This document shows positions 1 to 42,645 of a DNA stretch of 64,000 nt, piece after piece (positions within the stretch are counted from its first letter, which is position 1; the number at the start of each line of letters is the position of its first letter). The position numbers were made by a program, and so were the translations under genes. Under the pieces are notes generated by a model. It saw only the letters and a program-made list of their open reading frames with translations, was not told the origin of the DNA and searched no databases. Source of the DNA: Halapricum desulfuricans (lineage in GTDB: Archaea; Halobacteriota; Halobacteria; Halobacteriales; Haloarculaceae); assembly GCF_017094525.1 (NCBI RefSeq), contig NZ_CP064788.1, positions 496,001 through 560,000 on the forward strand, in the 5' to 3' direction.

Positions 1-180
1 GAGCGCGACGGATCGGCGAGCGCCGACGGTGGCTCAACGGAAGACTCGATCGCCGAGCAGTTCGGTGAGGACGCCGACGAGGTGCTAGAAGCGCTGTCCG
101 ACCTCGACGTCGACGAGACGGCCCCGGTCGAGCTGCTGTCGAAGGTGCAGGGATGGCAGGACCGGCTTGAGGGTCCCTGA
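1..180 (+). CDS. mutS: C-terminal fragment of DNA mismatch repair ATPase MutS (partial)
   Basis: Only the last 59 codons are present, open from base 1 to the TGA at 178-180. The fragment is acidic and ends in a helix-rich tail containing VDETAPVELLSKVQG, which resembles the C-terminal tail of MutS, where a T/SPxEALxxL-type helix closes the dimer. MutS recognises mismatches and couples ATP hydrolysis to repair signalling. None of the mismatch-binding or Walker regions is visible, so the call rests on the tail alone. An 80-bp palindromic element begins on the last base of the stop codon. Confidence 0.55.
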   Translation, partial: ERDGSASADGGSTEDSIAEQFGEDADEVLEALSDLDVDETAPVELLSKVQGWQDRLEGP

Positions 181-259
181 TACTGCCGGCTGTAACAAAC
201 TGAAGGAATTCGCCACCCCGGGGTGGCGAATATCTTTACGAACTTACAGCCGGCAGTAT
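180..259. repeat. 80-bp palindromic element, copy 1
   Basis: A perfect 16-bp terminal inverted repeat (ATACTGCCGGCTGTAA at 180-195, complement at 244-259) encloses a perfect 24-bp palindrome at 208-231 (ATTCGCCACCCC plus its complement). The palindrome lies exactly 28 bases from each end. Two further copies at 11409 and 42566 have the same 80-bp length and layout. The left end is the final A of the mutS-like TGA stop. The architecture fits a miniature palindromic mobile element. A role as a transcript-end hairpin is also possible. Confidence 0.8.
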
Positions 260-301
260 GAGCGCCGACGTCATGTAAGCAAACAGTTCGGTGTCTGACG
301 G

Positions 302-312
302 TATTTTATATC
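302..312 (+). promoter_or_regulatory. TATA box for the coiled-coil gene
   Basis: The AT-rich box TATTTTATATC is centred about 27 bases upstream of the ATG at 335. In haloarchaea this spacing indicates a leaderless transcript starting at or next to that ATG. It is the reason for choosing 335 over the ATG at 329 or the TTG at 314. Confidence 0.5.
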
Positions 313-334
313 GTTGAGGGACAGATCTATGTGT

Positions 335-718
335 ATGAGTAGCGAACCCGCAGATTCGAACCCCGAGTCACCGGGCGACGACGAGTCGAACTCACCCAGG
401 CTGACCATCGCGCTGCCGGACGGGAGCACGAGCGTCTCGGACGCGATCGTGACCAACCGGGAGATGCTGCGCGAACCCCAGGAACACGGGCTGGCGACGC
501 AGGAAGAGATCACGCACCTCTCGGAGGCGATCGAGGGGCTCTCGGAGAAGGCACAGACGGCGACCACCCAGTCCGAACAGACGCAGGCGAGCGTCGACGA
601 ACTGCAGGCGGTCGTCGAACGGCAGCGCCGACAGATCGAGGAACTGCAGTCGATGGTTTCTTCGCTTGCCGACATCCTGGGGACGGAAGCGGAGTGGGAA
701 ACCTTCGACGACGCGTAG
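335..718 (+). CDS. Hypothetical acidic coiled-coil protein
   Basis: This gene encodes a 127-residue protein with no family recognised. The first 25 residues are a disordered, acidic Ser/Pro/Glu stretch. Residues from about 45 to 115 form a continuous Gln/Glu-rich coiled coil with many heptad leucines and valines, ending in an acidic tail. There is no signal peptide or membrane segment, so a cytoplasmic oligomeric or scaffold protein is the simplest reading. It is flanked by the palindromic element and by one copy of a 42-bp direct repeat, and appears to be a single-gene unit. Confidence 0.7.
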   Translation: MSSEPADSNPESPGDDESNSPRLTIALPDGSTSVSDAIVTNREMLREPQEHGLATQEEITHLSEAIEGLSEKAQTATTQSEQTQASVDELQAVVERQRRQIEELQSMVSSLADILGTEAEWETFDDA

Positions 719-814
719 TCGGTCCGCGAGTTGCGGGCGATTCCCGTGCGCCGGACCTGGTGTGCCGAAACTGTGACCGAACAGCCGAGGCTACGGCTAC
801 TCGATCGATCTCAG

Positions 815-856
815 TAGAAGGCTCACTATCAGCCATTGCGACCAGAAGCACTTAAA
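815..856 (-). repeat. 42-bp direct repeat, copy 1
   Basis: This 42-bp sequence recurs at 2227-2268 with a single mismatch (base 848 against 2260). The two copies lie just downstream of two consecutive minus-strand stop codons: the nuclease-like gene ends at 874 and the aldo/keto reductase ends at 2273. On the minus strand each copy starts with a TATA-like TTTAAGTG and contains ATGGCTGATAG. Nothing convincing is encoded downstream of copy 1. Confidence 0.85.
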
Positions 857-873
857 CGGCACCGAGATCAGGC

Positions 874-2121
874 CTACCGTCGACGCGACAGCGGCTCGCA
901 GAGCCCCCACTCGTCGGTTCGGGGATCGAGGTTCGTCGGCTCGCTGCCGCGCTCGGTGAGGATGCCCGCGTGGAACAACATGGCCTTCAGCTGGAAGACC
1001 GTCGGCGAGTGGTAGCTCGCCCCCTCTTCGAGCACTGGCGTCCGGAGTTCGCCGTCGGCGGTCAGCGCACGCTCGCGCACGTCTTCGTCGCCTCGAAGGA
1101 AGAGCTCGACGGTGAAGGTCGGATGCTGCTCGTGGAGCCACGTGACGAGGTCGACCAGCGACGGACGGCCGAGGCCGTCGTCGTGCATCGTCTGCAGTTC
1201 GGTGACGAGCAACTCGGTAGCCGGATACTCGAAGACGACTCGTCGGGCGAGCTGGCCCCAGCGCGGCGCGAGGTCACGAAAGCGCTTGCGCGAGCGCTGC
1301 CACTGCTCGAAGGCGGCGAGCGCGTCGTCCAGAGCGGGATACTCCCGGAGCGCGAACCGGACGACCTCCTGCCCGAGCGAGGTGAGTCGGTAGCTCGCGC
1401 CGCGCTCGTCGATCAACCCCAGAAACGCCGCGCCGTCGATCGCGCCGTCGACCGCGCTGACGACGTGCGCCTCGAGCAACGCGCGGTGATCGCGGTCGTG
1501 AGCGAGCGCGAGCGGGACCGCCAGATAGTTCTTCGGGTGATTGAGACTGAAGTTGCGGTCGGCGACGCCCTGTGCGCTGGCCTGGAATCGGATCGCCGTG
1601 GCCTCCTCCGCGGTTCGGTTACCGACCACGCGCGGGCGTTCGAGTACCTCGATCGAACCGTCCGCTTCGACGCCGAGCACGCCGACGTTGAGCTGCCGGG
1701 CGAGCGTCCGGTCGGTCGCGGTGATCGCCCCGGCCGGCGCGCTGACGAACGCGACGTTGGCCTCGCCGAGCCGATCGTAGGCCTGGACGATGCCACGCTG
1801 GACGTCCACCCCGCCGCGCTTGCGGCCCTTGGCCTCGACGACGACCAGCGGCGGCTCGTCGCCGAGGCGATCGACCGCCAGGTACTCCGCCTCCAGTCTC
1901 CGGACGCCGATCAGATCCGGATAGCCCGAGCCGACCCGGACGTGATTAAAGGGCGCGAGAGCGGACGTGACCTCGGCGGCGATCTCGCGGTCCTCGACCC
2001 ACTTATCGCGCGCGAACTGCGTGTCCGCGACGACGTAGCTGTCGCTGTCATCCTCGGGAAAGAGCTGGGACTTCGTGTGCGCGAGCACGGTCGGCTCGGT
2101 CAGCGACGCCGCGGCAGCCAT
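874..2121 (-). CDS. PD-(D/E)XK nuclease-like protein with winged-helix-like C-terminal part
   Basis: This gene encodes a 415-residue protein. Residues 66-100 carry a restriction-endonuclease-fold signature: GYPDLIGV (Asp69) followed by VVVEAKGRKRG (Glu96, Lys98), with a downstream Q-x(4)-QAY helix typical of the fold. The middle part (AFLGLIDERGASYRLTSLG) looks like a winged helix, and the rest is alpha-helical and unassigned. The DNA substrate is unknown. No methylase or other restriction partner is adjacent. The reading frame stays open to a GTG at 2238, but those codons look non-coding and overlap the direct repeat, so the ATG at 2121 was chosen. A weak TATA-like CTCTTTGG lies about 26 bases upstream of it. 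The gene sits precisely between two 42-bp repeats. Confidence 0.65.
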   Translation of the reverse strand: MAAAASLTEPTVLAHTKSQLFPEDDSDSYVVADTQFARDKWVEDREIAAEVTSALAPFNHVRVGSGYPDLIGVRRLEAEYLAVDRLGDEPPLVVVEAKGRKRGGVDVQRGIVQAYDRLGEANVAFVSAPAGAITATDRTLARQLNVGVLGVEADGSIEVLERPRVVGNRTAEEATAIRFQASAQGVADRNFSLNHPKNYLAVPLALAHDRDHRALLEAHVVSAVDGAIDGAAFLGLIDERGASYRLTSLGQEVVRFALREYPALDDALAAFEQWQRSRKRFRDLAPRWGQLARRVVFEYPATELLVTELQTMHDDGLGRPSLVDLVTWLHEQHPTFTVELFLRGDEDVRERALTADGELRTPVLEEGASYHSPTVFQLKAMLFHAGILTERGSEPTNLDPRTDEWGLCEPLSRRR

Positions 2122-2226
2122 AGGCCCGGGTTCGGCGGGCCGGCCAAAGAGCGTTCCGCCGATCGCGGACCGGCGAGCGAACGGGACCTGCCTCTGAGGG
2201 CGCAGCTGCTCGACGATTGGTGGCCC

Positions 2227-2268
2227 TAGAAGGCTCACTATCAGCCATTGCGACCAGAACCACTTAAA
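2227..2268 (-). repeat. 42-bp direct repeat, copy 2
   Basis: This is the partner of 815-856, with 41 of 42 bases identical and the same orientation, 1412 bp away. It lies between the stop of the aldo/keto reductase and the nuclease-like gene. Its minus-strand TTTAAG could serve as a TATA box for a transcript reading into the nuclease-like gene. Confidence 0.85.
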
Positions 2269-2272
2269 GGAA

Positions 2273-3109
2273 CTACTCGGCGATGCCCCAGACGTCGTCG
2301 TCCCAGCTCCGGCCGCGGACGTCGTAGACCGGCTCGTCGCGGTCGAGGTCGTCGATGCGCCGGCGATCCTCGGGATCGAGTTCCCAGCCGAACAACTCGA
2401 AGTTCTGCCGGATGTGGCCCTCGGAGGTCGACCGCGGCAGGACGACCACGTCGTGATCGAGCGCCCACCGGAGGACGACCTGTGCGGGCGTGCGGTCGTG
2501 CTTGTCCGCGATCTCCTCGATGGCGGGGTCGTCGAGCACCTCTGTGCGAGCCAGCGGCGCGGCGGCCTCGACGACGACGTCGTTGGCCTGACAGTACTCG
2601 ACCAGTTCGGGCCGCTGGAGGTAGGGGTGGAACTCGATCTGGTTGACCGCGATCGGGACGTCCGAAATATGCAGCGCCGCGGAGAGCTGATACCGGCTGA
2701 AGTTCGAGACGCCGACGTTGCGGACGAGCCCGCGGTCGTGTAGCGTCGCCATCGCGTTCAGCGTCTCCCGCAGCGAGATCGCGGGGTTCGGCCAGTGGAT
2801 CAGATACAGGTCGAGATACTCCGTGCCGAGGCGATCGAGCGTCGACTCGCAGGCGTCGATCACCGACTCGTAGTCGAGGTTCTTCGCCAGTACCTTCGAG
2901 GTGACGAAGAGGTCCTCGCGATCGTGGTCGGCAAGCACGTCGCCGATCTCGTCCTCGTTGTGATAGCCTTCGGCGGTGTCGATATGGGTGTAGCCGGTTT
3001 CGAGCGCCGCCGAGACGGCCGTTCTGGCGGTTTCGCCGTCGAGACGATACGTTCCCTTGCCGACGACGGGCAGCTCACCGTCCGGAAGCGTGACTGTCGG
3101 TACAGACAT
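2273..3109 (-). CDS. Aldo/keto reductase (2,5-diketogluconate reductase type)
   Basis: This gene encodes a 278-residue TIM-barrel NAD(P)H-dependent reductase of the AKR superfamily. The catalytic tetrad is visible as Asp44 (HIDTAEGY), Tyr49, Lys72 (VTSKV) and His105 (YLIHWPNP). The cofactor-binding end has VLPRSTSEGHIRQNF near residue 225, and the length is normal for single-domain AKRs. It should reduce aldehydes or ketones, but the natural substrate cannot be read from sequence. It is transcribed alone, with a 42-bp direct repeat starting 5 bases after its stop. Confidence 0.9.
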   Translation of the reverse strand: MSVPTVTLPDGELPVVGKGTYRLDGETARTAVSAALETGYTHIDTAEGYHNEDEIGDVLADHDREDLFVTSKVLAKNLDYESVIDACESTLDRLGTEYLDLYLIHWPNPAISLRETLNAMATLHDRGLVRNVGVSNFSRYQLSAALHISDVPIAVNQIEFHPYLQRPELVEYCQANDVVVEAAAPLARTEVLDDPAIEEIADKHDRTPAQVVLRWALDHDVVVLPRSTSEGHIRQNFELFGWELDPEDRRRIDDLDRDEPVYDVRGRSWDDDVWGIAE

Positions 3110-3675
3110 CGTTCGACAGTTCGATGTCGACGTTGTAAGGCCCTTCGTCTGAGACCCCGGATCGTATTACCGCACCAACAAGATTCATAATCGTGATGGG
3201 CGTATCACGACGCGGCGGGTCCCCGATACCAACCCTGCCCCCACTGTTGGTGTCATCGATCGGTGCCCGTCCCGCCATTGTTGATCGACCGACGTGGACG
3301 CCCGTTTCTCCCGGCGTCCCCATTTCGCTATCGTCCGTCTGTTCTGTCGTCCTGCCCGAGTCGAATGCGGATGGTAACGTGGTCCAGTCGTCCAACAGTG
3401 TACCCAATTCACACGAGGCCGCTCGGCAACCCAATCACTCCACCGACGAGCGCAAACCGCCACGCCCTCCGATCGATTCGTCGATATATGGTCCCCCTCA
3501 TATCCGGCATGTTCTCAGGTAGCAAACAGCTTCGGGCGCAATATTGCCGGTCGTTCGCCGCCAGACTGGCTGTGCTACACGTCGCCGCCGTCGTCGGGGA
3601 CGCCAACTCGCCGCTTCGCTCTCTGAGGCAGGCGATGCTGGACGAGAAAACCAGGTGCGACAACGACGCTATCTT
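3110..3675. other. Gene-poor stretch with decayed sequence left of the IS element
   Basis: This roughly 560-bp stretch has no convincing gene. A short minus-strand frame (3409-3510) encodes a hydrophobic segment, WRFALVGGVIGLPSGLV, then a TGA. The same frame continues another 24 codons to TAG, which looks like a decayed single-TM protein. The bases around 3320-3365 resemble, on the minus strand, the tail of another remnant at 45233-45300 (both read QxDxTDG followed by a K/R-W-rich end). Codon usage is unlike the neighbours, consistent with debris beside a mobile element. Confidence 0.4.
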
Positions 3676-3690
3676 GATTCAGCGAGAGAA

Positions 3691-3758
3691 TCCCGCCCTT
3701 CCCGCGAAGGACGAGCGTTCCGACGCTCAGTCGGAACCGAGGACTGAGCAGGGCGGGA
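3691..3758. repeat. Left-end hairpin of the IS element with an enlarged loop
   Basis: TCCCGCCC at 3691-3698 pairs with GGGCGGGA at 3751-3758. The 52-base loop contains two smaller hairpins: GAGCGT-TCCG-ACGCTC (3713-3728) and GCTCAGTC...GACTGAGC (3725-3749), which are mutually exclusive at their junction. The right flank (GTGAATCGCGTAAGCTC) matches the flank of a six-base-loop version at 31490-31511 (GTGAAGCGCGTACGCTC). This suggests the same left-end element with extra palindromic DNA in the loop. Confidence 0.6.
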
Positions 3759-3793
3759 GTGAATCGCGTAAGCTCTGGTGAGAAGCCGCCGAG

Positions 3794-3937
3794 TTACTGC
3801 TGGTCTTGAGTCTCTAACGTGTCGAGTCCGGCTTCTAACAACTCTGTATAGGCTTCTGATAGCGTCAGGTCGCGTTCCTCTGCGAAGTCTTTGATACGTC
3901 CCTGTAACGTGTGGGTTATTTCTACGTTTGGTCGCAT
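3794..3937 (-). CDS. Small ribbon-helix-helix-like protein associated with tnpB
   Basis: This gene encodes 47 residues starting MRPNVEITHTLQGRIKDFAE and ending in a Gln-rich tail. The layout is a short beta-strand (NVEITHTL), a helix (QGRIKDFAEERD), a turn (LTLSEA) and a second helix (YTELLEAGLDTLE), which matches a ribbon-helix-helix DNA-binding subunit. It is transcribed divergently from tnpB with 44 bases between the starts, so it may repress the shared promoter region. Small genes of this kind next to haloarchaeal tnpB are familiar, but the function is inferred. The gene is intact even though tnpB is broken. Confidence 0.7.
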   Translation of the reverse strand: MRPNVEITHTLQGRIKDFAEERDLTLSEAYTELLEAGLDTLETQDQQ

Positions 3938-3981
3938 AGTCCAACAGTCTTTTATCTACGGAAACCTAACAATCTGTCGTC

Positions 3982-5380
3982 GTGAAGCGTACCAACACGT
4001 TCGCCGTGCGCCCGCTCACCGACGACGATGAGCAGGTGCTACAGGACCTGTTGGACGCGTGTGCCGCTCTCTGGAACGAAATCAATTACCAGCGCCTTAT
4101 GCGCTACAACGACGAGGACGGCTTCGAGGGCGACGTGTGGGACGCTGATACTGGCGCTCTGGAAGGCAAATACAAAGGCGTTCTCGGCGCGTCCACCGCC
4201 CAGACTGTCCGGCGAGTAAACACCGAAGCGTGGCGGTCGTTCTTCGAGAACAAGAAAGCGTATCACGACGAGTCAAACACGTCGGTTACTGAACACCCCG
4301 AACCGCCCGGCTTCCGTGGCAACGAGGACGACGGACGTGTTCTCAAAGGCGTCATCCGAAAGGACGCCTACACCGTCGAATGGGGCGACCGCTCCCGGCT
4401 AGAGATGGTCGTCGGAAAAGAACTCCGTGATAGGCACAACAGCCCGAAAAGCCGTCTCCGGCTGGAAATCGTTGGCGACCCGAACTGGCCCGACTACGAA
4501 GACCAGAGCCGGTTGGAACTGTGGTACGACGAGACTGAGAGCACCTTCCGAGCTTCGCAACCCGTGACTGTTTCTGACGATGTACGGGATCCTCCACTGG
4601 CCGATGAAAAGGCCGCTCTGGATATTGGTGCAAACAATCTCGTTGCCTGTACCACCACGACCGGCGAGCAATATCTGTACGAGGGCCGCGAGTTGTTCCA
4701 GCGGTTCCGCGAGACGACACGAGAAATTGCCCGGTTGCAGTCCAAGCTACCGGAAGGCCGATACAGTAGCGAGCGTATCAGGCGACTGTATCGGAAACGA
4801 ACCCGTCGCCGTGACCACGCTCAAGAAGCACTGTGTCGTGACCTGCTGGAACGACTGTACGCCGAGGGCGTGGACACGGTGTATGTCGGTGGCTTGACTG
4901 ACGTACTCGAAACGCACTGGTCGGTCAGGGTGAACGCCAAGACGCACAACTTCTGGGCGTTCAAGCACTTCACCGAGCGACTGGTCTGTACCGCCGAGGA
5001 ATACGGCATCTCGGTGGAAGTCCGGTCGGAAGCGTGGACCAGCCAAGAGTGCCCACAGTGTGGCGGCACAGACCGAACGACACGGCATCAGGACACGCTC
5101 ACCTGCCCGTGTGGATTCGAGGGTCACGCCGACCTTACAGCGTTCGCAAGACGCGACGCGTCTTGCGTGCCCACGAGAACCTTCGGTTCTCGGGACGTCA
5201 GAAACGTTCCTGAAGCGGCACACAGAGAAGGCAGTCAGGCCGATGGCCCGGCCCGTGCGGTTCGAGTGGGACGACCACACTTGGTCGGAGTCACCACGCT
5301 CTCACGAAAGTCCCAAAGAACAGCGCACAGACCCGAGTACCGTCCACCACAACGGGAATGTTGCCTCCGGGGGATCGTAG
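3982..5380 (+). pseudogene. tnpB: TnpB-family RNA-guided nuclease/transposon protein, frameshifted
   Basis: The frame opens at GTG 3982 and gives normal TnpB up to codon 387. It has an N-terminal domain, RuvC-I LDIGANN (Asp214), the [14 protein letters not shown] block, the zinc ribbon (ECPQCGG and TCPCGFEG) and RuvC-III GHADLTA (Asp384). It then shifts out of frame. The missing C-terminus, starting [20 protein letters not shown], is encoded in another frame from 5198 to the TGA at 5378-5380. Removing exactly bases 5143-5197 (55 nt) rejoins the two into a normal 447-residue TnpB. As it stands, the frame runs on into unrelated sequence to 5955. Intact TnpB cleaves DNA guided by an omega RNA from the element's right end. 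This copy keeps all RuvC residues but loses its tail. Confidence 0.85.
5143..5197. repeat. 55-bp double-hairpin insertion inside tnpB
   Basis: The insert consists of two consecutive near-perfect hairpins. The first is CGCAAGACGCG-A-CGCGTCTTGCG (5145-5167) and the second is CGAGAACC-TTC-GGTTCTCG (5174-5192). It lies directly after the codons of the RuvC-III motif. Its length is not a multiple of three, so it causes the frameshift. A CGT is present at both junctions, which leaves the exact borders ambiguous by a few bases. Confidence 0.8.
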
Positions 5381-5434
5381 ACCGACTGAGACTCCCACGG
5401 AGGAAACCGCGCCGTTTACGGCGCGGAGGATGTC
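5198..5434 (+). ncRNA. Possible omega RNA / right-end region of the IS1341-type element
   Basis: In IS200/IS605 elements the guide RNA overlaps the 3' end of tnpB and the right end. Here the region from the restored tnpB tail to 5434 ends with a strong hairpin (5407-5414 with 5419-5426, loop TTTA) and GGATGTCA at the element border. The bases just beyond would be the guide. This is placed by analogy only, and no promoter or processing site is visible. Confidence 0.3.
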
Positions 5435-6080
5435 ATTCCAGCGCGGAGATAACTTCGTCGACGAACTGCTCGGGCGGGAGCCCGCCGGTGAACTGTCCGG
5501 AATCGTTGACGTTAATCTGTGGGACGCCACGGACGCCGTACTCCTGGGAGAGTTCCATGAACTCCTGGGACTCGATGCCGTCGGCAGTGATCCGGTCGTT
5601 CTCGATCGCCATCTGGTGGGCGGCCTGGACTGCGCGCGGGCAGTGCGGACAGGTCGGCGTCACGAACACCTTGATGTTGACGGGCTGGTCGATGTTCTGG
5701 ACTTTCTCGCGCACGTCGTCGGGGAGGTCCGTCTCGCCCGGACCCTGCGCGACCGCGATGAGCCCCTGCAGGAAGGCGCTGAACTCCTGGCCCGACGGGA
5801 TGCCGAAGTACCGGACGCCGGTGACGCCGTCGCGAGTGATGACGGTGACGGGCGCGCCGTCGTACTTGGTCGCGCCGAGTTCCTCGGCCAGCGGATCGTC
5901 CATGTCGTGGGTCTCGACGACGACGTCGTCGCTTTCGCCTTCGACGTCGTCGTAGAGATCGAGTGTCTCCTCGCAATACTGACAGCCGTCCTCAGTGAAG
6001 ACGTGGACGGTGACTGTCTCCTCGAGGGAGGTCAGGAGTTCGTTGACTTGACTGCGGTCGTCTGCGGAGAGGACTGACAT
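5433..6080 (-). CDS. Protein disulfide oxidoreductase (PDO), two thioredoxin folds
   Basis: This gene encodes a 215-residue cytoplasmic glutaredoxin-like protein of the archaeal PDO family. The N-terminal thioredoxin unit has GCQYC (Cys33, Cys36) and the C-terminal unit has TCPHC (Cys144, Cys147), followed by the cis-Pro loop [10 protein letters not shown]. Such proteins form, reduce or isomerise protein disulfides, usually with the second CxxC as the main active site. The ATG at 6080 gives the family's normal N-terminus; the upstream extension to 6230 has no family support. The IS1341-type element abuts its stop codon without truncating it. Confidence 0.85.
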
Positions 6081-6168
6081 TCTACCTTGACGTTGGCACT
6101 CTGACTGTGTTATATTTTGCGTTTTGCCCAATACTCCGAAACGAGGGGTGACAGCCACTGAGACGCCG

Positions 6169-7284: not shown

Positions 7285-7567
7285 AGTATTGTGTGTTTGT
7301 GTACTTTCTCTGCTGGATCGTCTTCAACTCGTCGGATCCGACAACCCCATTTAATAGTGATGTATACGTTCTTCCAGTCCGCTTTTTTCGGTTTCGCGCG
7401 CGTGAATTTCGAAGCAGATGAGTCGCTCTGTCCACAGTACACTGGTTCGGTCCACGGACCTCCACACCGGGCTCGTGCTGTGCATGGTCGTGGGATATTC
7501 ACGAAAGATCGGACGGATATCCGGCGTATCAAAGCCCTATTGGTGGTCCGGTCGCCATGTAGGGGTG

Positions 7568-9370: not shown

Positions 9371-9391
9371 TACTCGCCGGTCCATCACGAT

Positions 9392-9412
9392 CCTTGATCG
9401 TTTTTCTTCTTC
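9392..9412 (+). terminator. Oligo-T terminator after the lipoyl-E3 gene
   Basis: GATCGTTTTTCTTCTTC lies 22-42 bases after the E3 stop codon. Archaeal RNA polymerase terminates at coding-strand T-runs without needing a hairpin. It separates the E3 gene from the independently promoted OsmC gene. Confidence 0.45.
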
Positions 9413-11070: not shown

Positions 11071-11409
11071 ATGGCATCTCCAGAAGACGAAGTCGCGGAG
11101 AAAAAGCAGAACGTACAGGAATTCGCCGGGGAAGCAGAATCTGTCGAATCGTTCCTGGGATTCGTCCACTCGGCCGAGGAAGACGGCGCGCTGGACGCGA
11201 AGACGAAGGAACTGATGTCGCTCGCGCTGGGCGTCACGCTGCGCTGTGAGGACTGTATCGTCTGGCACCTCGACGCGGCTATAGCGGCGGGCGCGACCGA
11301 GGACGAGATCGTCGAAGCGCTCGAGATCGCGGTCGTCATGGGCGGCGGTCCGGCCCTGATGTACGCCACCGAGGCCTACGAGACGCTGCAGTCGTTCGAC
11401 CTCGATTGA
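11071..11409 (+). CDS. Carboxymuconolactone decarboxylase / AhpD-like protein
   Basis: This gene encodes a 112-residue all-helical protein of the CMD superfamily. It has the AhpD-type peroxidatic motif CEDCIVWHLDAA (Cys59, Cys62, His66) followed by GATEDEIVEALEIAVVMGGGP. The CxxC...H arrangement indicates a thiol-redox role (alkylhydroperoxidase-like, lipoamide-linked in AhpD) rather than a true decarboxylase. That would fit with the nearby OsmC, lipoate ligase and lipoyl-E3 genes, an inferred link. The TGA stop donates the first base of an 80-bp palindromic element. A TATA-like region lies around 11034-11042. Confidence 0.88.
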   Translation: MASPEDEVAEKKQNVQEFAGEAESVESFLGFVHSAEEDGALDAKTKELMSLALGVTLRCEDCIVWHLDAAIAAGATEDEIVEALEIAVVMGGGPALMYATEAYETLQSFDLD

Positions 11410-11488
11410 TACGGGTGGCTATCCGTTTCTAAAGATATCTGGCACGACGGCGTGCCGGATCGTTCCGCGATGGTATAGTCACCAGTAT
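11409..11488. repeat. 80-bp palindromic element, copy 2
   Basis: The terminal repeats ATACGGGTGGCTAT (11409-11422) and ATAGTCACCAGTAT (11475-11488) match with two mismatches. The central hairpin ATCTGGCACG-ACGG-CGTGCCGGAT (11437-11460) lies exactly 28 bases from both ends. It shares its hairpin core with copy 3 at 42566, and like copy 1 it starts on the last base of an upstream TGA stop. A separate short hairpin, CCGCCC-CGTC-GGGCGG, follows at 11503-11518. Confidence 0.8.
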
Positions 11489-11567
11489 AAACTGCCGTTC
11501 TACCGCCCCGTCGGGCGGCCGATCCGGCGGACTTCGAGCAGCTGCTCTCGCGAGTCCGGTGCGTGTC

Positions 11568-20494: not shown

Positions 20495-20675
20495 TATACC
20501 GACGGACGTGACTTTTGATACGGCTTCAGCCGAATCGGTCGAGGTCGAACGTATCAGGGCATATGTCTGTCGGTATCGTTCGGTCGGGGCCTCAACAGCC
20601 AGAAGCCGGCAATATAATCCGTGTCGATCGATCCGTTCCGATATCATTATTAACGTTCCTGAAGAATCACGAGAT

Positions 20676-28582: not shown

Positions 28583-28593
28583 AACCGGTCACC

Positions 28594-31470: not shown

Positions 31471-31475
31471 ACGGA

Positions 31476-34782: not shown

Positions 34783-34858
34783 ATCCAGTGGTGATCGGCG
34801 CTCGTCGTAAGTCAATTCCGCCTCGATCGGAGCGACCTGCGAAACGGACGCGGTGTGT

Positions 34859-35212
<354 letters not shown>

Positions 35213-35254
35213 CTAATACTGTCGCCGGATCGTCGCTCTCGTTTCTGGTTCCGG

Positions 35255-35785: not shown

Positions 35786-35897
35786 GGCTTCGTGTTGGTG
35801 TTGCAGGGGTAAGTCCCCCGCGGTGGTGGCAATCGAGTTCGGCGATCTGCGCACGCCACTCGCCAACAAACCAGTGTCAGCGGGGGGATCGCGCCGG

Positions 35898-36977
35898 CTA
35901 GACGATCTCCATGAGGCGGCGCTCGAAGCGCCCGACACGGACGCGGTGCCAGCCGCGCAGGCGTTCGTCGAGGTCGGCGTCGCCGGTATCGACCCGGAGG
36001 ACGCCCAGCTGATCGACCTTCTGCCGTGACGCGACGATTTCGGTCTCGCACTGGCGGATCACGGCCGGCGAGAGTTGCTGGTTGCCCCGTCCGAAGACGA
36101 ACCCCTGGCCGCCGATCGGCGAGACGACGATCACGTTCTCGTCGCCGAGCGAATCGAGAACCTCGTCCTCGCGAGCGTCGGCTACCAGCAGTTCGCCGTC
36201 GCGCCAGACGTCGACCCCGAGCGGCGACCCGTCGAATCCCAGCCGTGATTTGATCGCGCCGACGGTCCCCCCCGGTCCGAGGACGTACGTGACGCCCGGT
36301 CGGACCTCCTCGGCGACCCCCTCCGCGACTGCCTCGACAGTGCCGCCGGCGAGTTGCTTGCTCGACTGACGCTGCTGGGCCCGCGGGACGGTCACGACGG
36401 CGTGCAACTCCGAGCGGACCTCGCCCTCCCGGTAGGCTTGCTCGTCGATATCGTTGACCTCCCCGTCGGTCACCTCCTCGAAGGTCGCCGCGACCCGCCC
36501 GGCGGCGCGCGGCGTCACGCCGAAGACCGACGAATAGACCTTGACACCGGCAGGCACACCGAAGACCGGTACGCCCGATTCCCCGAGCGCCTCGGCGACG
36601 TCGACGGCCGTCCCGTCGCCCCCGACGAAGACGACGATGTCGACCCCGCGATCCAGAAACGCCCGGACGGCTGCGCGCGTGTCCTCGGCTGTTGTCTCGC
36701 CGACAGCGGCGTCGGGGCCGGCCTCGGATTCGCCGATAATTTCGGGATCGAAGCCAGCCTCGCGAGCGGCAGACGCGCCCATGACGCCGCCGTAGGTCAC
36801 GAGCGTGACGTCGGTGTCGGTCGCGGCCATCGCGTCGAGCGCCTCCCGCGCCCGGTCGGGGGCACGCGGTCGCGCGCCGCGCTCGCGGGCCTGCGCCAGC
36901 TTGCCGTCGGTGCCTTTCAGCCCGACGCGCCCGCCCATGCCGGCGATGGGGTTGACGACGAACCCGATAGTGCGCAT
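35898..36977 (-). CDS. ATP-NAD kinase family (AcoX-like) protein
   Basis: This gene encodes 359 residues. The N-terminus FVVNPIAGMGGRVGLKGTDG and the VVFVGGDGTAVDVAEAL diphosphate loop place it in the NAD kinase/diacylglycerol kinase superfamily. A Gly-rich block VTYVLGPGGTVGAIKSRLG and IVVSPIGGQGFVFGRGNQQ in the C-terminal half match the longer AcoX-like subgroup. The role may be NAD phosphorylation or a related nucleotide substrate. The canonical short archaeal NAD kinase is not seen here. Confidence 0.8.
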   Translation of the reverse strand: MRTIGFVVNPIAGMGGRVGLKGTDGKLAQARERGARPRAPDRAREALDAMAATDTDVTLVTYGGVMGASAAREAGFDPEIIGESEAGPDAAVGETTAEDTRAAVRAFLDRGVDIVVFVGGDGTAVDVAEALGESGVPVFGVPAGVKVYSSVFGVTPRAAGRVAATFEEVTDGEVNDIDEQAYREGEVRSELHAVVTVPRAQQRQSSKQLAGGTVEAVAEGVAEEVRPGVTYVLGPGGTVGAIKSRLGFDGSPLGVDVWRDGELLVADAREDEVLDSLGDENVIVVSPIGGQGFVFGRGNQQLSPAVIRQCETEIVASRQKVDQLGVLRVDTGDADLDERLRGWHRVRVGRFERRLMEIV

Positions 36978-37106
36978 ACCCGTTCCACGGGGCCTCGGAA
37001 GGAAAGCGCCACGGTGTCCGGCGTGACTGTGACACTGCTTTCCCGGGTCGACAGCGGCACTCGGTTCTGAGAGCCTGCCAGACACGTCGGACGGCTCGGC
37101 CACGCA

Positions 37107-37117
37107 CATTTTTATCG
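37107..37117 (+). promoter_or_regulatory. TATA box for the 40-residue membrane protein
   Basis: CATTTTTATCG is centred 27 bases before the ATG at 37139, the spacing of a leaderless haloarchaeal start. It is the main argument that the tiny downstream frame is a gene. Confidence 0.5.
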
Positions 37118-37138
37118 TTCGACGACGGAGTATCGGAC

Positions 37139-37261
37139 ATGCTCGTACCGCTTGCGGAAACCGCAGTCAACGGGGACGTGATCAATCTCGCCGGCGCGAT
37201 CGTCGCTGTCGGCGGGCTCGTGTTGACCTACGCCTGGCTGCAGGAACTCTATCTGGATTGA
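37139..37261 (+). CDS. Tiny single-TM protein (40 residues)
   Basis: This gene encodes 40 residues: MLVPLAETAVNG, then one membrane segment (INLAGAIVAVGGLVLTYAWL), then a short QELYLD tail. The promoter spacing fits a leaderless mRNA. Its last 13 bases overlap the end of the convergent cinA-like gene. No family is recognised. It may be a conserved haloarchaeal small membrane protein. Confidence 0.6.
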   Translation: MLVPLAETAVNGDVINLAGAIVAVGGLVLTYAWLQELYLD

Positions 37262-37950
37262 TCGTCCGGGTGATCGACGCGCTCGGCGAGCCACCTCGCG
37301 GCTGACTCTACGGTTTCAACGTCAGTTCCGGAGACTTTCACGCGGACGTGATCCCCCGGATAGACGCCGACAGTCACGTCGAAGCGTCCGCGGAGGTTCT
37401 CGATCCGGTCGAGGAGCGCGCTTTCGGGCTCGTCGGCGACGACCGTCTCGGTGTGCTTGACCGTCCCGCTGAACTGGTCGGCGATCTCGCCGAACATCCC
37501 CCGCATCTCCTCGGGGACACCCGGGAGCACGTAGACGTTCTCCACGTGACAGCCCGGCGCGACCCCCTCCGGGTTCGGGATGAACTGCCCGCCGGCGGGG
37601 ATCTCGGTCGTCCCCTCGGTCAGGTCCTCGCGGGCGTAGCCGCGCTGTGTCTCGATGTATTCCAGGGCCGGCTCGCTCGGCTCCATCGGCTGGCCGACGG
37701 CCGCCGCGACCGCGTCCATCGTTACGTCATCGTGCGTGGGTCCGATCCCGCCGGTGACGACCACGGCGTCGTATTCGGCGCGGTACTCGTTGACGACGCG
37801 CGCGATCTCTCCGATACGGTCCGGGACGGCGGTGGCGCGTTCGACCGTCACTCCGCGGTCGGTCAACTTCCGGGAGAGCCACGCGGCGTTCGTGTTGACG
37901 GTGTCACCGGCAAGCAACTCGTCGCCGACGGTTACCAGCGCGACGCGCAT
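37249..37950 (-). CDS. CinA/MoaB-type molybdopterin-binding domain protein
   Basis: This gene encodes 233 residues of the MoCF-binding superfamily: VTVGDELLAGDTVNTNAAWL at the start, then VVVTGGIGPTHDDVTMDAVA with the phosphate-binding GGIGPTxDD loop, and FIPNPEGVAPG plus VYVLPGVPEEM in the middle. This is the N-terminal half of bacterial CinA without the C-terminal nicotinamide-nucleotide amidase domain. Proposed roles include NMN or ADP-ribose pyrophosphatase activity. The start MRVALVTVG at 37950 fits. Confidence 0.88.
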   Translation of the reverse strand: MRVALVTVGDELLAGDTVNTNAAWLSRKLTDRGVTVERATAVPDRIGEIARVVNEYRAEYDAVVVTGGIGPTHDDVTMDAVAAAVGQPMEPSEPALEYIETQRGYAREDLTEGTTEIPAGGQFIPNPEGVAPGCHVENVYVLPGVPEEMRGMFGEIADQFSGTVKHTETVVADEPESALLDRIENLRGRFDVTVGVYPGDHVRVKVSGTDVETVESAARWLAERVDHPDDQSR

Positions 37951-38012
37951 ACCTGTTCGTTGTGGTCTCGATAGCAAAGGCGTGTCGCCCTCTTTTCGGC
38001 TCGTTCGAGGGC

Positions 38013-38771
38013 TTATCGTCCCATCCCCGGCGGCGGCCCCCGGTCTCCCAGGTCGTCGTCCTCATCTTCCACGTCGAGCCCGACCTCCTCGCGGCGGTTC
38101 TGTAGCGACCGGATCTGCAGCCAGTAGTACAGCCCGCCGCCGAGTCCGATGATCACGAGCAGCGCGAACAGGCCACCGAACAGCCACAAGTCGCGCTCGA
38201 GGTAGTACTCGACGACCAGCTGGTCGCTGTCGACGTCGTCCCAGGTGATGTGGACCCGTCCGTCGATCGTCTCGGTCTCGTAGCCGCCGGGAGCGACGTT
38301 CGAGAGGATCGGCACGCCGACGTCGGTCTTCGGCGGGAGCACGACCTCGTAACTGTCGTCGACGAACGTCGCCGTCCGGACGGCCTTGCCGTTCTGCTCG
38401 ACGGTGTAAGCGACCTTCCCGGTTCGGTCGGGCAACTCGAGGCGGATCCGCTCGGCGTTTCTGGAGACGTCGAACGCCGAGGCGTTGGCGACCGTGCCGT
38501 TCGGGTAGCGGAACTGCAGCGCTCTGATCGGGAGCGGCTCGCGGTTGTTGAACATGTCCCGCTGGTAGAGGTTCAGCGCCGACGTGTTGGCGACCTCGTA
38601 GACGGCAGTGTAGCTGTCCCCGCCCAGCTGGATGGTCCCGTTCGCGGTGGTGTTCCAGTCGTACGTTGCGTCTTCGCTCAGCTGCGCGTCCGACGGGCCA
38701 GAACCGCCGAGACAGCCCGTGAGAACGAGCACAACGCCCAGTCCGAGGAGTGCGAGGAGTCGACGGTTCAT
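38013..38771 (-). CDS. DUF5803-like membrane-anchored lipoprotein
   Basis: This gene encodes 252 residues. It has an N-terminal signal with lipobox (LALLGLGVVLVLTGC), an extracellular beta-rich domain of about 170 residues, a TM helix (LWLFGGLFALLVIIGLGGGL) and a cytoplasmic acidic tail ending GPPPGMGR. It matches a haloarchaeal family of unknown function (DUF5803 type). It overlaps the DUF2110-like gene by four bases and follows tfe, forming a three-gene coupled unit. Confidence 0.75.
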   Translation of the reverse strand: MNRRLLALLGLGVVLVLTGCLGGSGPSDAQLSEDATYDWNTTANGTIQLGGDSYTAVYEVANTSALNLYQRDMFNNREPLPIRALQFRYPNGTVANASAFDVSRNAERIRLELPDRTGKVAYTVEQNGKAVRTATFVDDSYEVVLPPKTDVGVPILSNVAPGGYETETIDGRVHITWDDVDSDQLVVEYYLERDLWLFGGLFALLVIIGLGGGLYYWLQIRSLQNRREEVGLDVEDEDDDLGDRGPPPGMGR

Positions 38772-39439
38772 GGAACGACAGCGAGCAACTCCGCGGAGAG
38801 ATACGACCCGATGCTCGAGAGCAGTCCCGGCGGGTCGGTGTCGTCCGTACAGACGATGCTCTGTTCGAGCAGTCCGAGCCGTTCGACGGTGACGATGTCC
38901 CGGGCGTGGCCGGCACGGTTGACCGTCGCCCGGACCTCGGCCCGGGTCGCGCTGTTGACGTTGACCCGACCGTTGCCACGGGTCCACTCGTAGAGCCGGT
39001 CCCGCTCTCGGTCGGCCAGTCGCGCCGGACCGTCTTCCTGCGGGACGAACCGCAGCGGGAGATGCTGAACCAGCCCGAACCGGGTCCGGATCTGCTCAGG
39101 CGACCCCGGTCCGAGTCCGAGTTCCTCGGCCGGGACGTGAACCTCCCGTCCGGCGTCGAGGTAGAACCCGTCGTCGTCCCACCGTTCGAGCGTGCCGACG
39201 TGGACATCGCCCGGCGTGAGATGCGGCGTGATCTCCCCGAACTCCTCGCGCAGGAGGTTCTGGGCGACCGTCGCGTCGTCCCCCTCGACCGTCACCGACG
39301 GGAAGTCGTCGTCGCGAACGCCGACCTCGTAGGTCACGTCCAGCTCGCCGAGCAGGTTCTCGATCTGCGAGGACAGCGAATCCAGCGCTCGCTGTCGGGC
39401 GTCGCCGGCGACGTAACACTTGGTTGCGAGGACGACCAT
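38768..39439 (-). CDS. DUF2110 family protein
   Basis: This gene encodes 223 residues. It starts MVVLATKCYVAGDARQRALD and contains the HLTPGDVHVGTLERWDDDGF block and a C-terminal HARDIVTVERLGLLEQSIVC. The DUF2110 family is archaeal and often linked to tfe, suggesting a transcription or RNA-related role, but no activity is known. Its start overlaps the tfe stop by one base (TGATG) and its end overlaps the DUF5803-like gene (ATGA). Confidence 0.8.
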   Translation of the reverse strand: MVVLATKCYVAGDARQRALDSLSSQIENLLGELDVTYEVGVRDDDFPSVTVEGDDATVAQNLLREEFGEITPHLTPGDVHVGTLERWDDDGFYLDAGREVHVPAEELGLGPGSPEQIRTRFGLVQHLPLRFVPQEDGPARLADRERDRLYEWTRGNGRVNVNSATRAEVRATVNRAGHARDIVTVERLGLLEQSIVCTDDTDPPGLLSSIGSYLSAELLAVVP

Positions 39440-39972
39440 CAGACTCGTTCCGTGTCGGGTTCGACGTTGAGTTCGTCGCGCAACTGTTCGATCCGTTCCT
39501 CCATCGCCTCGAGCAACATCGTGTTCTCCATCGCATCCAGCTGGGAGCCACAGTCGGGACATTCGAAGCCGAAGTCCATCGCCTCGCCGAACTCGAAGCG
39601 GATCCCGCAGTTCTCACAGAGGTAAAACTCGTGTTCGAACTCGTACTCTCGGCGTTCCTCGAGTCCATCCAGCAACCGGTGCATCTCCGCTTCGAGTTGC
39701 TCGGGGATGTTCTCGTAGTGGAACGTCCAGAGGTAGGTCAGCCACCCCGAGTCCTCGTCGCGCAGTCGGCGGTAGCTCGCCAGGTCGTTCTCGTAGAGGA
39801 TGAACAGCGCCCGGCGGACGTCGTTGAGTTCGAGTCCCAACTCCTCCGCCAGTTCCTCGTCCGTCACTTCGCCGTCCGGCGGCGCGGCGGCGACGGGCAT
39901 CCCCTTCGGTCCGACGAGTTCGTGGAGGTACTTCTGTATGACCGGGTCCTCCAGGAGATCCTCAAAAGCCAT
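39439..39972 (-). CDS. tfe: Transcription factor E (TFE alpha)
   Basis: This gene encodes a 177-residue homologue of TFIIE-alpha. The N-terminal winged helix covers residues 1-90 (GEVTDEELAEELGLELNDVRRAL), a helical linker follows, and a C-terminal zinc ribbon has CENCG and CPDCGSQLD. It stabilises open promoter complexes with RNA polymerase and TFB. It is the first gene of the tfe-DUF2110-DUF5803 unit. Confidence 0.94.
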   Translation of the reverse strand: MAFEDLLEDPVIQKYLHELVGPKGMPVAAAPPDGEVTDEELAEELGLELNDVRRALFILYENDLASYRRLRDEDSGWLTYLWTFHYENIPEQLEAEMHRLLDGLEERREYEFEHEFYLCENCGIRFEFGEAMDFGFECPDCGSQLDAMENTMLLEAMEERIEQLRDELNVEPDTERV

Positions 39973-40043
39973 TGTGCGTACCTGGGCCTGTGACGCGGTT
40001 AAGTCTTTAGCTTTTCCCGTACGAAAACGAACGCCGAGGTTCG

Positions 40044-40136
40044 CTATTCGTCGTCTTCGACGTTTGCCGGAAGGGACTCGTGACACCACATCGCGCCCCA
40101 GCCGCCACAGCCGACGTGAATCACTCGCTGTGTCAT
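40044..40136 (-). pseudogene. N-terminal remnant of a Gfo/Idh/MocA-type oxidoreductase
   Basis: A 30-codon frame reads MTQRVIHVGCGGWGAMWCHE and then SLPANVEDDE before a TAG. IHVGxGGxGxxWCxxxLPxNVxD is the dinucleotide-binding N-terminus typical of haloarchaeal Gfo/Idh/MocA dehydrogenases, which are normally 350 residues or more. Nothing downstream on the minus strand (toward tfe at 39972) continues the family. It is therefore either a decayed gene fragment or, less likely, a domesticated micro-protein. Confidence 0.55.
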
Positions 40137-40207
40137 GGATTGGGTGGGACGTGCGTCGGACAAAAAACCGGCGTATTTCGACGATCGTCGTATCAGTAGT
40201 CGACAAA

Positions 40208-40215
40208 CACTTAAC
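40208..40215 (+). promoter_or_regulatory. TATA box of the HMG-CoA synthase gene
   Basis: CACTTAAC, preceded by the BRE-like CGACAAA, is centred about 26 bases upstream of position 40238. This gives an almost leaderless message for the ATG at 40242 rather than the GTG at 40236. Confidence 0.45.
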
Positions 40216-40241
40216 CCAGTTCCCCGTCAGGACAGGTGAAC

Positions 40242-41576
40242 ATGAAGGACGTAGGAATCGACGCCGTCGAGTTCCGGTCAGGGAAGCTCAAGCTCGATCT
40301 CCCGGGGACGTTCGCGGAAGTCAAGGACGAAGACCCGGCGAAGTACACGAAGGGGCTGGGACTGCACGCGAGTTCGTTCCCGGACGCGTACGAGGACATC
40401 GTAACGATGGCGGCCAACGCATCCAAGCGGCTGATGGACCGCAAGGGTCTGGAACCGGACGACATCGGCCGGATCGATGTCGCAACTGAGAGCGCGTTCG
40501 ATCACTCGAAGCCGGTTTCGACGTACGTCGCCGGTTGTCTGGAACAGGTCTACGACGGCGATTTCCGCCACGCCAACAAGGGCGAGCGCAAGTTCGCCTG
40601 CATCGCCGGCACCCAGAGCGTCGACGACGCCGTCAACTGGATCGCCGCCGACAAGAACCGCGGTCGCGCCGCGATCGTGATCTCGACCGACACGGCCCTC
40701 TACGAGCGCGGCGACTCCGGCGAGGCGACCCAGGGTGCCGGTGCCGTCGCGATGCTCATCGACGAGGACCCCGATCTCGTCACGATCGAGCCCGAGCAGG
40801 GTATCGGTAGCGTCGACGAGACGGACTTCCTCAAGCCCAACCAGCAGTTCCCGAGCGTCGACGGCAAGCGCTCGATGCAGGTGTATCTCATGCGGATGCG
40901 CGAGGCCCTGGAAGACTACGAGACGCAGGTGGAGACCCACCCGGACGACTTCGCGTTCATCCCGTTCCACACACCCTTCCCGGGCATGGTGCGCAAGGCC
41001 GCCCCGCTGGGGTATCGACACGTCGCGCGCGGTACCGAGGTCGAGGACGAACTCGCCGAGGAGATCGGCCGCCAGCCCCGGCCCGAGGCGTTCGACGACG
41101 ACGAGGCGTACCGCGAGGCGCTCAAAGAGTACACCGACAAGCTGACCGAGACCGAGCGCTATCAGGAGTGGTACAGCCGCGCGATCGAGCCGACGCTTGA
41201 CATCTCCTCGCGCGTCGGCAACTGGTACACCAGTTCCGTCCACCTCGCCCGCATCTCGGCGCTCAAGCACGCCCGCGAGAACGGCATCGACCTCGACAAC
41301 GAGCGACTGCTGGTCGGCTCGTACGGTTCGGGGGCGCAGGCCGAGATCCATGGCGAGACGGTCCAGCCCGGCTGGGAGGACGAGATCGCACAGCTCAACG
41401 TCGACGATCAACTGGTCGAGCGTTACGACATCTCATGGGAGGAGTACGAGGCGATCCACGACGTGCACAATCACGAGGAGTCAGTCGATGTCGACCCGCT
41501 CACGACGCCGGACGGCGAGTTTGTCTTCGACGGCTGGGGTCGAATGGGCGAGCGGAAGTACACCTACGTTGAGTAG
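40242..41576 (+). CDS. hmgB: Hydroxymethylglutaryl-CoA synthase
   Basis: This gene encodes 444 residues. The enzyme condenses acetyl-CoA with acetoacetyl-CoA at the start of the mevalonate route to archaeal isoprenoid lipids. The catalytic residues are visible: general base Glu83 (VATESAFDHSKP), nucleophile Cys120 (FACIAGTQS) and His243 (FIPFHTPFPGM). Further family blocks are NWYTSSVHLARISAL and GSYGSGAQAEI. The first two codons of the longer GTG frame are not needed. It is a single gene. Confidence 0.96.
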   Translation: MKDVGIDAVEFRSGKLKLDLPGTFAEVKDEDPAKYTKGLGLHASSFPDAYEDIVTMAANASKRLMDRKGLEPDDIGRIDVATESAFDHSKPVSTYVAGCLEQVYDGDFRHANKGERKFACIAGTQSVDDAVNWIAADKNRGRAAIVISTDTALYERGDSGEATQGAGAVAMLIDEDPDLVTIEPEQGIGSVDETDFLKPNQQFPSVDGKRSMQVYLMRMREALEDYETQVETHPDDFAFIPFHTPFPGMVRKAAPLGYRHVARGTEVEDELAEEIGRQPRPEAFDDDEAYREALKEYTDKLTETERYQEWYSRAIEPTLDISSRVGNWYTSSVHLARISALKHARENGIDLDNERLLVGSYGSGAQAEIHGETVQPGWEDEIAQLNVDDQLVERYDISWEEYEAIHDVHNHEESVDVDPLTTPDGEFVFDGWGRMGERKYTYVE

Positions 41577-42536
41577 TCACGGAACGACCTGATTGTCGAG
41601 GTTGTCCCACGAGCCGGACTCGACCGCATGCTCGACGTTCCCGACGACGATATCGGCCAGTCGATCGTAGTACTCGGGCGTGTACCCGCCGTTGTGCGGC
41701 GTGATCAGGACGTTCTCGAAGTCCCAGAGCGGGTGCTCCGGGGGCAGCGGCTCGGGATCAGTCACGTCCAGCGCGGCCCCGCGGATGTGGTTCCACCGCA
41801 GCGCGTCGACCAGCGCGTCGGTCTCGATCACGCCGCCGCGGGCGACGTTGACGACGACCGCGTCGGGATCGAGCAGGTCGAACGCCGCACCGTCCAGCAG
41901 GTCCTCGGTCGTCTCGGTCAGCGGGCACGCGAGTACGACCCCCTCGGAACCGGCAAGCGCCGTCTCGAGGTCGTCGTAGCCGAACACCGCGTCGGCGGGG
42001 CCGCCCTTCTCCGGCGTGTGACGGACTGCCCGGAGGTCGACGTCGAACGGCCGGAGCCGACGGGCGATCGCCGTTCCGATCGCGCCCAGTCCGACGACAG
42101 TGACGGTACGGCCGGCGAGTTCGCCGGGCTGGAAGTTGCGCCACTCGTGGTTGCGTTGCTGGCGGCGCGCCCGGAAGAGACCGCGAGTCAGCGAAAGCAG
42201 CGACCCGACGGCGTGCTCGGCGACGTTCGATGCGTGGACGCCGCCGGCGTTGGTCACCGTTACGCCCTGCTCGCGCAGTTCCGAGAGCGGGAGGTGGTCG
42301 GTGCCCGCGTACGAGCAGGCGAACAGTTCGAGGGCCCCGGCCTGGTCGAGGTCGTCGGGCGAGATGTAGTTTCCGACGACGACGGTCGCCGAGGGCAACG
42401 CCGCGTCGATTTCGTCGCTCGTCCGGGCGAGCGACACGTCCCCGTCGTAGCGTGCGCGCAGCGACGAGACGAGCGACTCGACCGGGATCCCGTGTGGCTT
42501 CTGCGGGAGGACGAGAATCTCGGGTAACGCTGTCAT
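41577..42536 (-). CDS. D-2-hydroxyacid dehydrogenase
   Basis: This gene encodes 319 residues. It has the NAD-binding Rossmann motif VVGLGAIGTAIARRL and the catalytic Arg (NVARGGVIETDAL), Glu (DPEPLPPEHPLW) and His (ITPHNGGYTPE) of the family. It oxidises or reduces 2-hydroxy/2-oxo acids; glyoxylate/hydroxypyruvate or phosphoglycerate-like substrates are possible. ATG 42536 was preferred to the one at 42548. The third 80-bp palindromic element lies just upstream. Confidence 0.9.
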   Translation of the reverse strand: MTALPEILVLPQKPHGIPVESLVSSLRARYDGDVSLARTSDEIDAALPSATVVVGNYISPDDLDQAGALELFACSYAGTDHLPLSELREQGVTVTNAGGVHASNVAEHAVGSLLSLTRGLFRARRQQRNHEWRNFQPGELAGRTVTVVGLGAIGTAIARRLRPFDVDLRAVRHTPEKGGPADAVFGYDDLETALAGSEGVVLACPLTETTEDLLDGAAFDLLDPDAVVVNVARGGVIETDALVDALRWNHIRGAALDVTDPEPLPPEHPLWDFENVLITPHNGGYTPEYYDRLADIVVGNVEHAVESGSWDNLDNQVVP

Positions 42537-42565
42537 CGTACGGGTCATGGTGTGCCGCGTTTGTC

Positions 42566-42645
42566 ATACTGGTGGCTATACGTTCGTAACGATATCTGGC
42601 ACGACGGCGTGCCAGATCAGTTCGAAATGGTATAGCCACCAGTAT
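42566..42645. repeat. 80-bp palindromic element, copy 3
   Basis: Perfect 15-bp terminal inverted repeats, ATACTGGTGGCTATA (42566-42580) and its complement (42631-42645), flank the perfect hairpin ATCTGGCACG-ACGG-CGTGCCAGAT (42594-42617). The hairpin lies exactly 28 bases from each end. The element occupies the intergenic space between two divergent genes. The sequence CGTTTGTC directly before the left end is repeated before the half-element at 45218. Confidence 0.85.

Follow-up and report, generated by a model that had tools for sequence, protein, structure and literature searches.

The window that we analysed is a stretch of 64,000 nucleotides from the haloarchaeon Halapricum desulfuricans (496001-560000 of the single 2,893,909-bp contig of this host), and it holds three copies of an 80-bp palindromic repeat. 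We revealed that this repeat is a transposable element. It is very probably a non-autonomous DNA transposon of the type of the miniature inverted-repeat transposable elements (MITEs), with a 78-bp body, TAC...GTA, and a target, TNA (N, any base), that is duplicated; it would be moved in trans by a DDE-type transposase, its fold would play a role in movement, and its insertions into stop codons would do little harm. An earlier note on this DNA had described the three loci and left a choice between a MITE, a REP-like element (REP, repetitive extragenic palindrome) and a regulatory RNA. The first of these is favoured by the duplicated targets, by orthologous sites that lack the element, by copies that are identical and by insertions that are nested or in tandem; the regulatory RNA is not supported, and the REP-like element fits poorly.

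All three loci proved exact in coordinates and length, 80 bp each. The 16-bp terminal arms form 16/16 Watson-Crick pairs in copies 1 and 3 and 13/16 in copy 2, which has decayed and whose arms are imperfect; the note had given terminal inverted repeats of 14-16 bp. Arm and stem are separated by 12-nt spacers, which are nearly unpaired (4/12, 2/12 and 2/12 pairs in copies 1, 2 and 3). As the note had it, a central hairpin lies 28 bases from either end; it has a 4-nt loop and a 10-bp stem in which 10/10, 9/10 and 10/10 positions pair. With RNA or DNA parameters, the fold energy is far lower than that of shuffled sequences for copies 1 and 3, and moderately lower for copy 2. The z-scores of the + strand against 200 dinucleotide shuffles are -11.5, -4.3 and -9.9 for RNA and -9.5, -2.8 and -8.8 for DNA, and 0, 3 and 0 of the 200 shuffles folded equally well as DNA. 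For copy 2 the fold is weaker on the minus strand, with an RNA z of -2.7 and 2 shuffles that fold equally well. These loci do not match by chance, a possibility that the note had raised against itself, since the host chromosome (2.89 Mb) has 57 matches to the exact two-arm pattern, which admitted lengths of 62-84 bp, and 0 to its reversed control. With 24 distinct copies as its training set, a covariance model matched the window copies with E values of 1e-24, 3.4e-23 and 1.3e-17, and about 96 distinct places of the host genome were among the matches listed.

The ends of the element are laid out as T-N-[ATAC...GTAT]-N-A, that is, as the 78-bp body between two copies of TNA. An identical 3-bp TNA duplication flanks 54/57 host copies and 84/93 copies elsewhere (138/150 together), and it was also found in 23/27 usable copies at the loci of an order-wide survey and of G163, a genome from another family than the host's. 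The duplicated triplet is TGA or TCA in 118/138 cases, and the pooled target consensus is GACTSAGTC. Comparison of filled and empty orthologous sites, which the note had proposed, revealed that all three window sites are without the element in at least one relative. At the site of copy 3, Halapricum hydrolyticum has no element and a single TCA at the joint. At the site of copy 1 the element is present in the relative G001 and absent from H. hydrolyticum, where the TGA stop of the homologous gene stands at the same place. The site of copy 2 is empty in H. hydrolyticum, G003 and G005, with no arm at fewer than 4 mismatches, and the gene ends in TGA there also in H. hydrolyticum and G003. A base-exact empty joint comes from copy 3 only, because the intergenic regions have otherwise diverged. 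Two of the 57 host copies (L001 and L120) are nested within a second element family with arms ATACGGTCGGTTGTA, and the entire nest at L001 is missing from H. hydrolyticum. Two tandem pairs also occur in the host, one base apart, with a TNA common to both members, and 14/57 host copies are letter-identical. In G163, exact arms number 53 in forward and 50 in reverse orientation. The 100 places listed for it include 41 arm pairs, all of 80 bp; among the 17 single arms listed, 13 have a mutated partner at 79-80 bp, and the rest comprise one 26-bp remnant and three arms for which no partner was found. G163 therefore has at least 54 copies of 79-80 bp, and many of its copies have the same model score. 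This suggests a recent burst of the element in that genome. From the duplications, the empty sites, the nested and tandem insertions, the identical copies and the arm pairs of G163, it follows that the element has moved recently.

Two side observations belong here. Members of the second family (about 81 bp at L147:4728-4808 and 64 bp at L151:2530-2593) have TNA-like flanks and an unrelated internal sequence, and the layout at L147 (arms, spacers, inner inverted repeat) looks alike. The 26-bp remnant of G163, at L464:301-326, consists of little beyond the two arm tips.

The form of the insertions also bears on the mode of movement. A REP/REPIN-like element could be moved via single-stranded DNA by a Y1/HUH enzyme (TnpA-REP or IS200-type) that recognises hairpins, and the hairpin architecture, the extragenic placement and the lack of a linked transposase are what this would produce; in Haloquadratum, IS605-type elements and the palindrome-associated transposable elements (PATEs) derived from them are abundant, according to the excerpt of the source available (PMC3119063). 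However, the same excerpt reports IS605-type elements and PATEs as lacking target duplication (PMC3119063), whereas identical TNA flanks nearly all copies here, and both ends of the element are inverted repeats. With its 3-bp target duplication the element is a poor match for HUH-type movement, to which we give hardly any chance, although no search aimed at HUH enzymes was made.

The note had argued from covariation at a near-fixed geometry that the folded form is under selection, and paired changes in two sequence sets support this. Set A2 consists of 24 distinct 80-mers from the host genome, its family and named genomes, and includes copy 2; set A3 was drawn from the order-wide survey and consists of 16 80-mers, of which 11 belong to other families. 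In A2, both members of a pair have changed in 59 alignment cells, where shuffles average 22.2 (59 was reached by 0/500 shuffles). Of all cells, 92.6% pair, and sliding the partner lowers this share to 22.6-51.0%. In A3, 35 double-changed cells stand against 8.9 in shuffles (0/500), each of the five covariation measures is reached by at most 1/500 shuffles, and 94.5% of cells are paired, a value biased upward because the set was found with a structure-aware model. A3 also has pair types that are new relative to the training set, for example AU in place of CG at columns 11/70. As an internal control we took the inner half of the spacer, with 6 of the 12 spacer pairs: 65.6% of its cells pair, which is below the shuffled mean, and it has 1 double change where 4.2 are expected. 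Over 96 distinct 80-mers, Watson-Crick pairs make up 97.2% in the arms, 89.1% in the stem and 33.2% in all 12 spacer pairs. Compensatory changes thus keep the arms and the stem paired and do not keep the inner spacer so. A constraint on the folded form is well supported, and the fold may have its role in movement.

Paired changes can also arise by mutation. In a mobile element, both sides of a pair could change without selection on the fold if template switching corrected quasi-palindromes or if inverted copies recombined. The mosaic copy L012 has arms from different subfamilies, and between subfamilies the arms change symmetrically and as blocks, both as expected from such processes. Nevertheless, one pair of the central stem (columns 34/47) has CG, GC and AU versions in both alignments, and the adjoining inner spacer is not kept paired. 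We regard this explanation as a possible but doubtful one.

A fold that is kept by compensatory changes could instead be that of an RNA. The repeat would then be a structured regulatory or 3'-untranslated RNA (a terminator, stabiliser or riboregulator) whose mobility is incidental, and its very stable fold, the compensatory changes and the many copies at gene 3' ends are consistent with that. However, if the RNA came from one fixed strand, G·U should be tolerated and A·C should not, and in the 96 distinct 80-mers G·T and A·C mismatches are nearly equal, 12 vs 10 in the arms and 29 vs 22 in the stem. Therefore, the constraint seems to act on the DNA or to favour neither strand. The orientations at stop codons are mixed (24 vs 33), copy 3 lies between divergent genes, 13/57 host copies have flanking genes called -+, relatives lack the element at all three window sites, and the window has 0 Rfam matches above the gathering score. 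The regulatory RNA of the earlier note was rejected as the main explanation on this strand balance, and we consider it very improbable.

The MITE-type element is widespread. Its length of 80 bp, which the note took as exact, is a strong mode and not a rule: 44/57 host copies have it, 11 have 79 bp and 2 have 74 bp, and in other genomes 67/93 copies have it, the remainder being 72-82 bp. Shorter forms lose length mostly within the central hairpin, and the host 79-mers lack one base near the centre. A survey with the exact pattern was positive in 16/59 genomes, namely the host and 15/34 others of its family, and in 0/24 outside; the named genomes include Haloarcula pellucida, Haloarcula rara and H. 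hydrolyticum. The restriction to the host's family suggested by that survey was overturned by searching the order with the covariance model, as the note had advised. It gave matches at E <= 1e-6 in 34/146 genomes, host included. These span eight families, and many hold just one to three matches. Of the copies fetched from this survey, 16/18 are 80 bp long and 13/18 come from families other than the host's. Plasmids (searched with copy 3) and phages (searched with copy 1) gave no BLAST match to one 84-base query each, and viral contigs gave 0 matches to the two-arm pattern. Single arms matched at 239 viral loci, where no inward pair with equal flanks was found; these matches were taken as chance and not as copies of the element.

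Stop-codon placement is a new, partly generalising feature of the element. It can be seen, like the TNA duplication, at copies 1 and 2, both of which start exactly on a TGA stop codon, and the note mentions neither. For this analysis, empty sites were modelled by removing the element and one target copy, and genes were called by a codon-usage score trained on 18 open reading frames (ORFs) of the window. Of the 135 clean copies, 58 lie exactly on a stop codon. Host copies comprise 17 on a stop codon, 34 at other non-coding sites and 3 in coding sequence, and copies of other genomes comprise 41, 36 and 4, respectively. In the window, 48/309 non-coding TNA sites (15.5%) are stop codons, and against this baseline the share among non-coding sites is raised both in the host (17/51, p 0.0013) and in the others (41/77, p 2e-14). 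A weight matrix made from the non-stop copies predicts 9.8% on stops; a stricter matrix trained on all copies predicts 15.5% for the host and 32.5% for the others, and the excess remains (p 0.001 and 0.0001). A by-product of target sequence was thus rejected as the cause, as the observed share exceeds both the matrix and the plain TNA expectations. Per 100 TSA sites, 20 are occupied at the stop codon in the host vs 6-10 at 4-40 bp beyond it, and 12 vs 2-8 in the others. At the order-wide and G163 loci, 4/22 non-coding copies lie on a stop (p 0.04 vs a local 5.9%). The bias reaches beyond the host's family and not to every genome, and these numbers are small. When the duplicated triplet is TGA or TAA, the gene regains its stop codon, and therefore such insertions should be tolerated. 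Either targeting or selection may be the source of this placement. As a separate observation, in an orthologous gene (L130/L093) the host's 80-bp element and, in a metagenome-assembled genome, an arm of the other family lie on the same stop codon; no second arm of that family was found at L093. This hints at repeated use of one target.

Several observations weigh against the element as we describe it. Ten of the 16 arm pairs in A2 are fixed by the search pattern, and two of its five covariation measures are weak (11 pairs with double change vs 8.4, reached by 14/500 shuffles, and 21 further pair types vs 19.4, reached by 125/500). A 72-bp form, whose central stem is still paired and has only 5 bp, is also cleanly duplicated at all of its five sites (L045, L075, L082, L039 and L090), so this short form seems to be mobile too. 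Three orthologous site pairs are occupied in Halapricum and Haloarcula-type genomes (L122/L086, L154/L049 and L156/L072), with host and Haloarcula elements of different subfamilies; old shared insertions with sequence exchange, or repeated hits on one target, fit these sites. For the stop codons, placement on stops was 0/11 in G163 and 4/11 elsewhere, three of the four outside the host's family, so that the bias may be local or selection may produce it; the gene caller is also crude. Finally, a limited search turned up no transposase with matching ends. It took in three Pfam transposase families, PF01609 in one genome and PF13359 and PF13586 in six, and so may have missed an autonomous partner. 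At the 20 places where the host has PF01609, the ends differ from those of the element or could not be recognised. PF13359 (DDE_Tnp_4) was absent in 6/6 genomes, and PF13586 gave one match in six genomes, below its cut-off. Of the 13 unpaired host arms listed, 4 were followed, and no transposase was seen by eye among the neighbouring ORFs, without a family search. The single arms examined in the host and at the loci of other genomes, and the 17 listed for G163, revealed no transposon with these ends. Separately, we observed that the host copy at 2844056 (L164) is interrupted by a PF01609 insertion sequence with ends CATCCGTCTTTAGC/CATTCGTCTTTAGC and a 10-bp duplication.

How the MITE-type element moves can be proposed as follows. 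The 3-bp duplication at TNA suggests a DDE-type transposase, which would act in trans and cut with a 3-bp stagger. For a DNA this short, it is difficult to bring the two ends into contact by looping. Folded DNA, as a cruciform or hairpin, might bring the ends together or be recognised by the enzyme, and the geometry of arms and central hairpin would be kept for this; the ends would meet more easily if the central stem or the entire foldback were extruded. A stop codon rebuilt by the duplicated TGA or TAA would make an insertion nearly harmless, and such insertions could accumulate. An element on a stop codon would become the 3' untranslated end of the gene, with putative effects on transcript ends. 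A broader picture, which we think rather unlikely, is that of an order-wide element with selected folded DNA that is moved by an unlinked, possibly host-domesticated transposase and prefers stops in many hosts. It would be an archaeal counterpart of the REPIN/RAYT pair (RAYT, REP-associated tyrosine transposase) with a 3-bp TNA duplication, and genes would keep their stop and gain a 3' hairpin.

The finding adds a widespread repeat family, with sharply defined structure and target, to haloarchaeal genomes. It raises the question of what moves an element too short to bend easily, and whether foldback DNA takes part. By inserting at stop codons, a selfish element has a simple way to multiply in a compact genome and leave the genes intact, and many genes can acquire the same 3' end in this manner. 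As strain markers, the copies may be of use as well.

The features of the three copies are collected in the table. Two further stretches of the window were observed. At 20496-20576 there is a weak model match of 81 nt (E 0.018, filters off) with arms ATACCGACGGAC/GTCTGTCGGTAT, which is perhaps a remote third family or an old copy. At 45218-45232 there is a lone left arm, ATACTGGTGGCTATC, preceded by TTGTC as is copy 3, and it is probably a truncated copy.

Table. Features of the three element copies, in positions of the window; copy 1 is assigned its strand by the half that has GTTCGTAAAGATAT at left.
Feature	Position	Strand	Remark
Copy 1	180..259	(-)	commonest sequence type in the host
Copy 1, left target duplication TGA	178..180	+	called stop codon of the left-hand gene
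Copy 1, right target duplication TGA	259..261	+	
Copy 1, central hairpin	208..231	.	10-bp stem, 4-nt loop
Copy 2	11409..11488	+	partly decayed, arms 13/16 paired
Copy 2, left target duplication TGA	11407..11409	+	stop codon of ORF 11071-11409
Copy 2, right target copy	11488-11490		reads TAA
Copy 2, central hairpin	11437..11460	.	9/10 Watson-Crick pairs
Copy 3	42566..42645	+	between divergent ORFs 41577-42548 (-) and 42713-44077 (+)
Copy 3, left target duplication TCA	42564..42566	+	single TCA, no element in Halapricum hydrolyticum
Copy 3, right target duplication TCA	42645..42647	+	
Copy 3, central hairpin	42594..42617	.	10-bp stem, 4-nt loop

Literature searches, mostly outside subscription papers, gave no description in which we recognised this element, and it was compared with known systems. 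The IS1031 group of the IS5 superfamily has a TNA target, and its 3-bp duplication is like that of the element. Eukaryotic PIF/Harbinger transposons share a 3-bp duplication, as the excerpt of the source has it (PMC2213677). Unlike these two groups, the six genomes searched have no DDE_Tnp_4 protein, and the TACTG... ends matched no family here. Extragenic hairpins, many copies and an unlinked mover are features that the element has in common with REPs and REPINs and their TnpA-REP (RAYT), judging from parts of two sources (PMC3116915, PMC2817692). The enzymes associated with REPs are described there as tyrosine transposases (PMC2817692), and REP/REPIN hairpins are tagged GTAG or CGTC in the portion available of a third source (PMC3733652); unlike them, the element makes a 3-bp target duplication. 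It also differs from the PATEs and other IS605-derived elements, which have neither terminal inverted repeats nor duplication, in having both. Closest among the elements on record are the small mobile repeats (SMRs) and the MITEs of Haloquadratum walsbyi. The SMRs include the 80-bp HqIRS41, and the excerpt describes them as repeats of about 80-110 bp with inverted repeats unlike those of known transposons and an enigmatic mobiliser (PMC3119063), a likeness judged from the description of HqIRS41 without sequence comparison. SMRs are reported there to have no target duplication and to target other mobile elements (PMC3119063). Here TNA is duplicated, so one defining feature of SMRs fails; as to insertion into mobile elements, 2/57 host copies are nested in the one other repeat family surveyed, and 17/51 lie on stops. 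The MITEs of Haloquadratum walsbyi are, in the part of the source at hand, likewise short, mostly non-coding elements with terminal inverted repeats, often a target duplication and many copies, and they were taken to be mobile even though an intact transposase to match them was not found (PMC3119063). The element differs from them in its length of about 80 bp, its TNA target, its covarying central hairpin and in that no transposon with related ends was found here. For full membership among MITEs it would need only a matching autonomous transposon, which the limited search did not find; it has 16-bp inverted arms, is too short to code for a transposase, duplicates TNA, is multi-copy and has both filled and empty sites. 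It is best labelled a MITE-type element of a new family.

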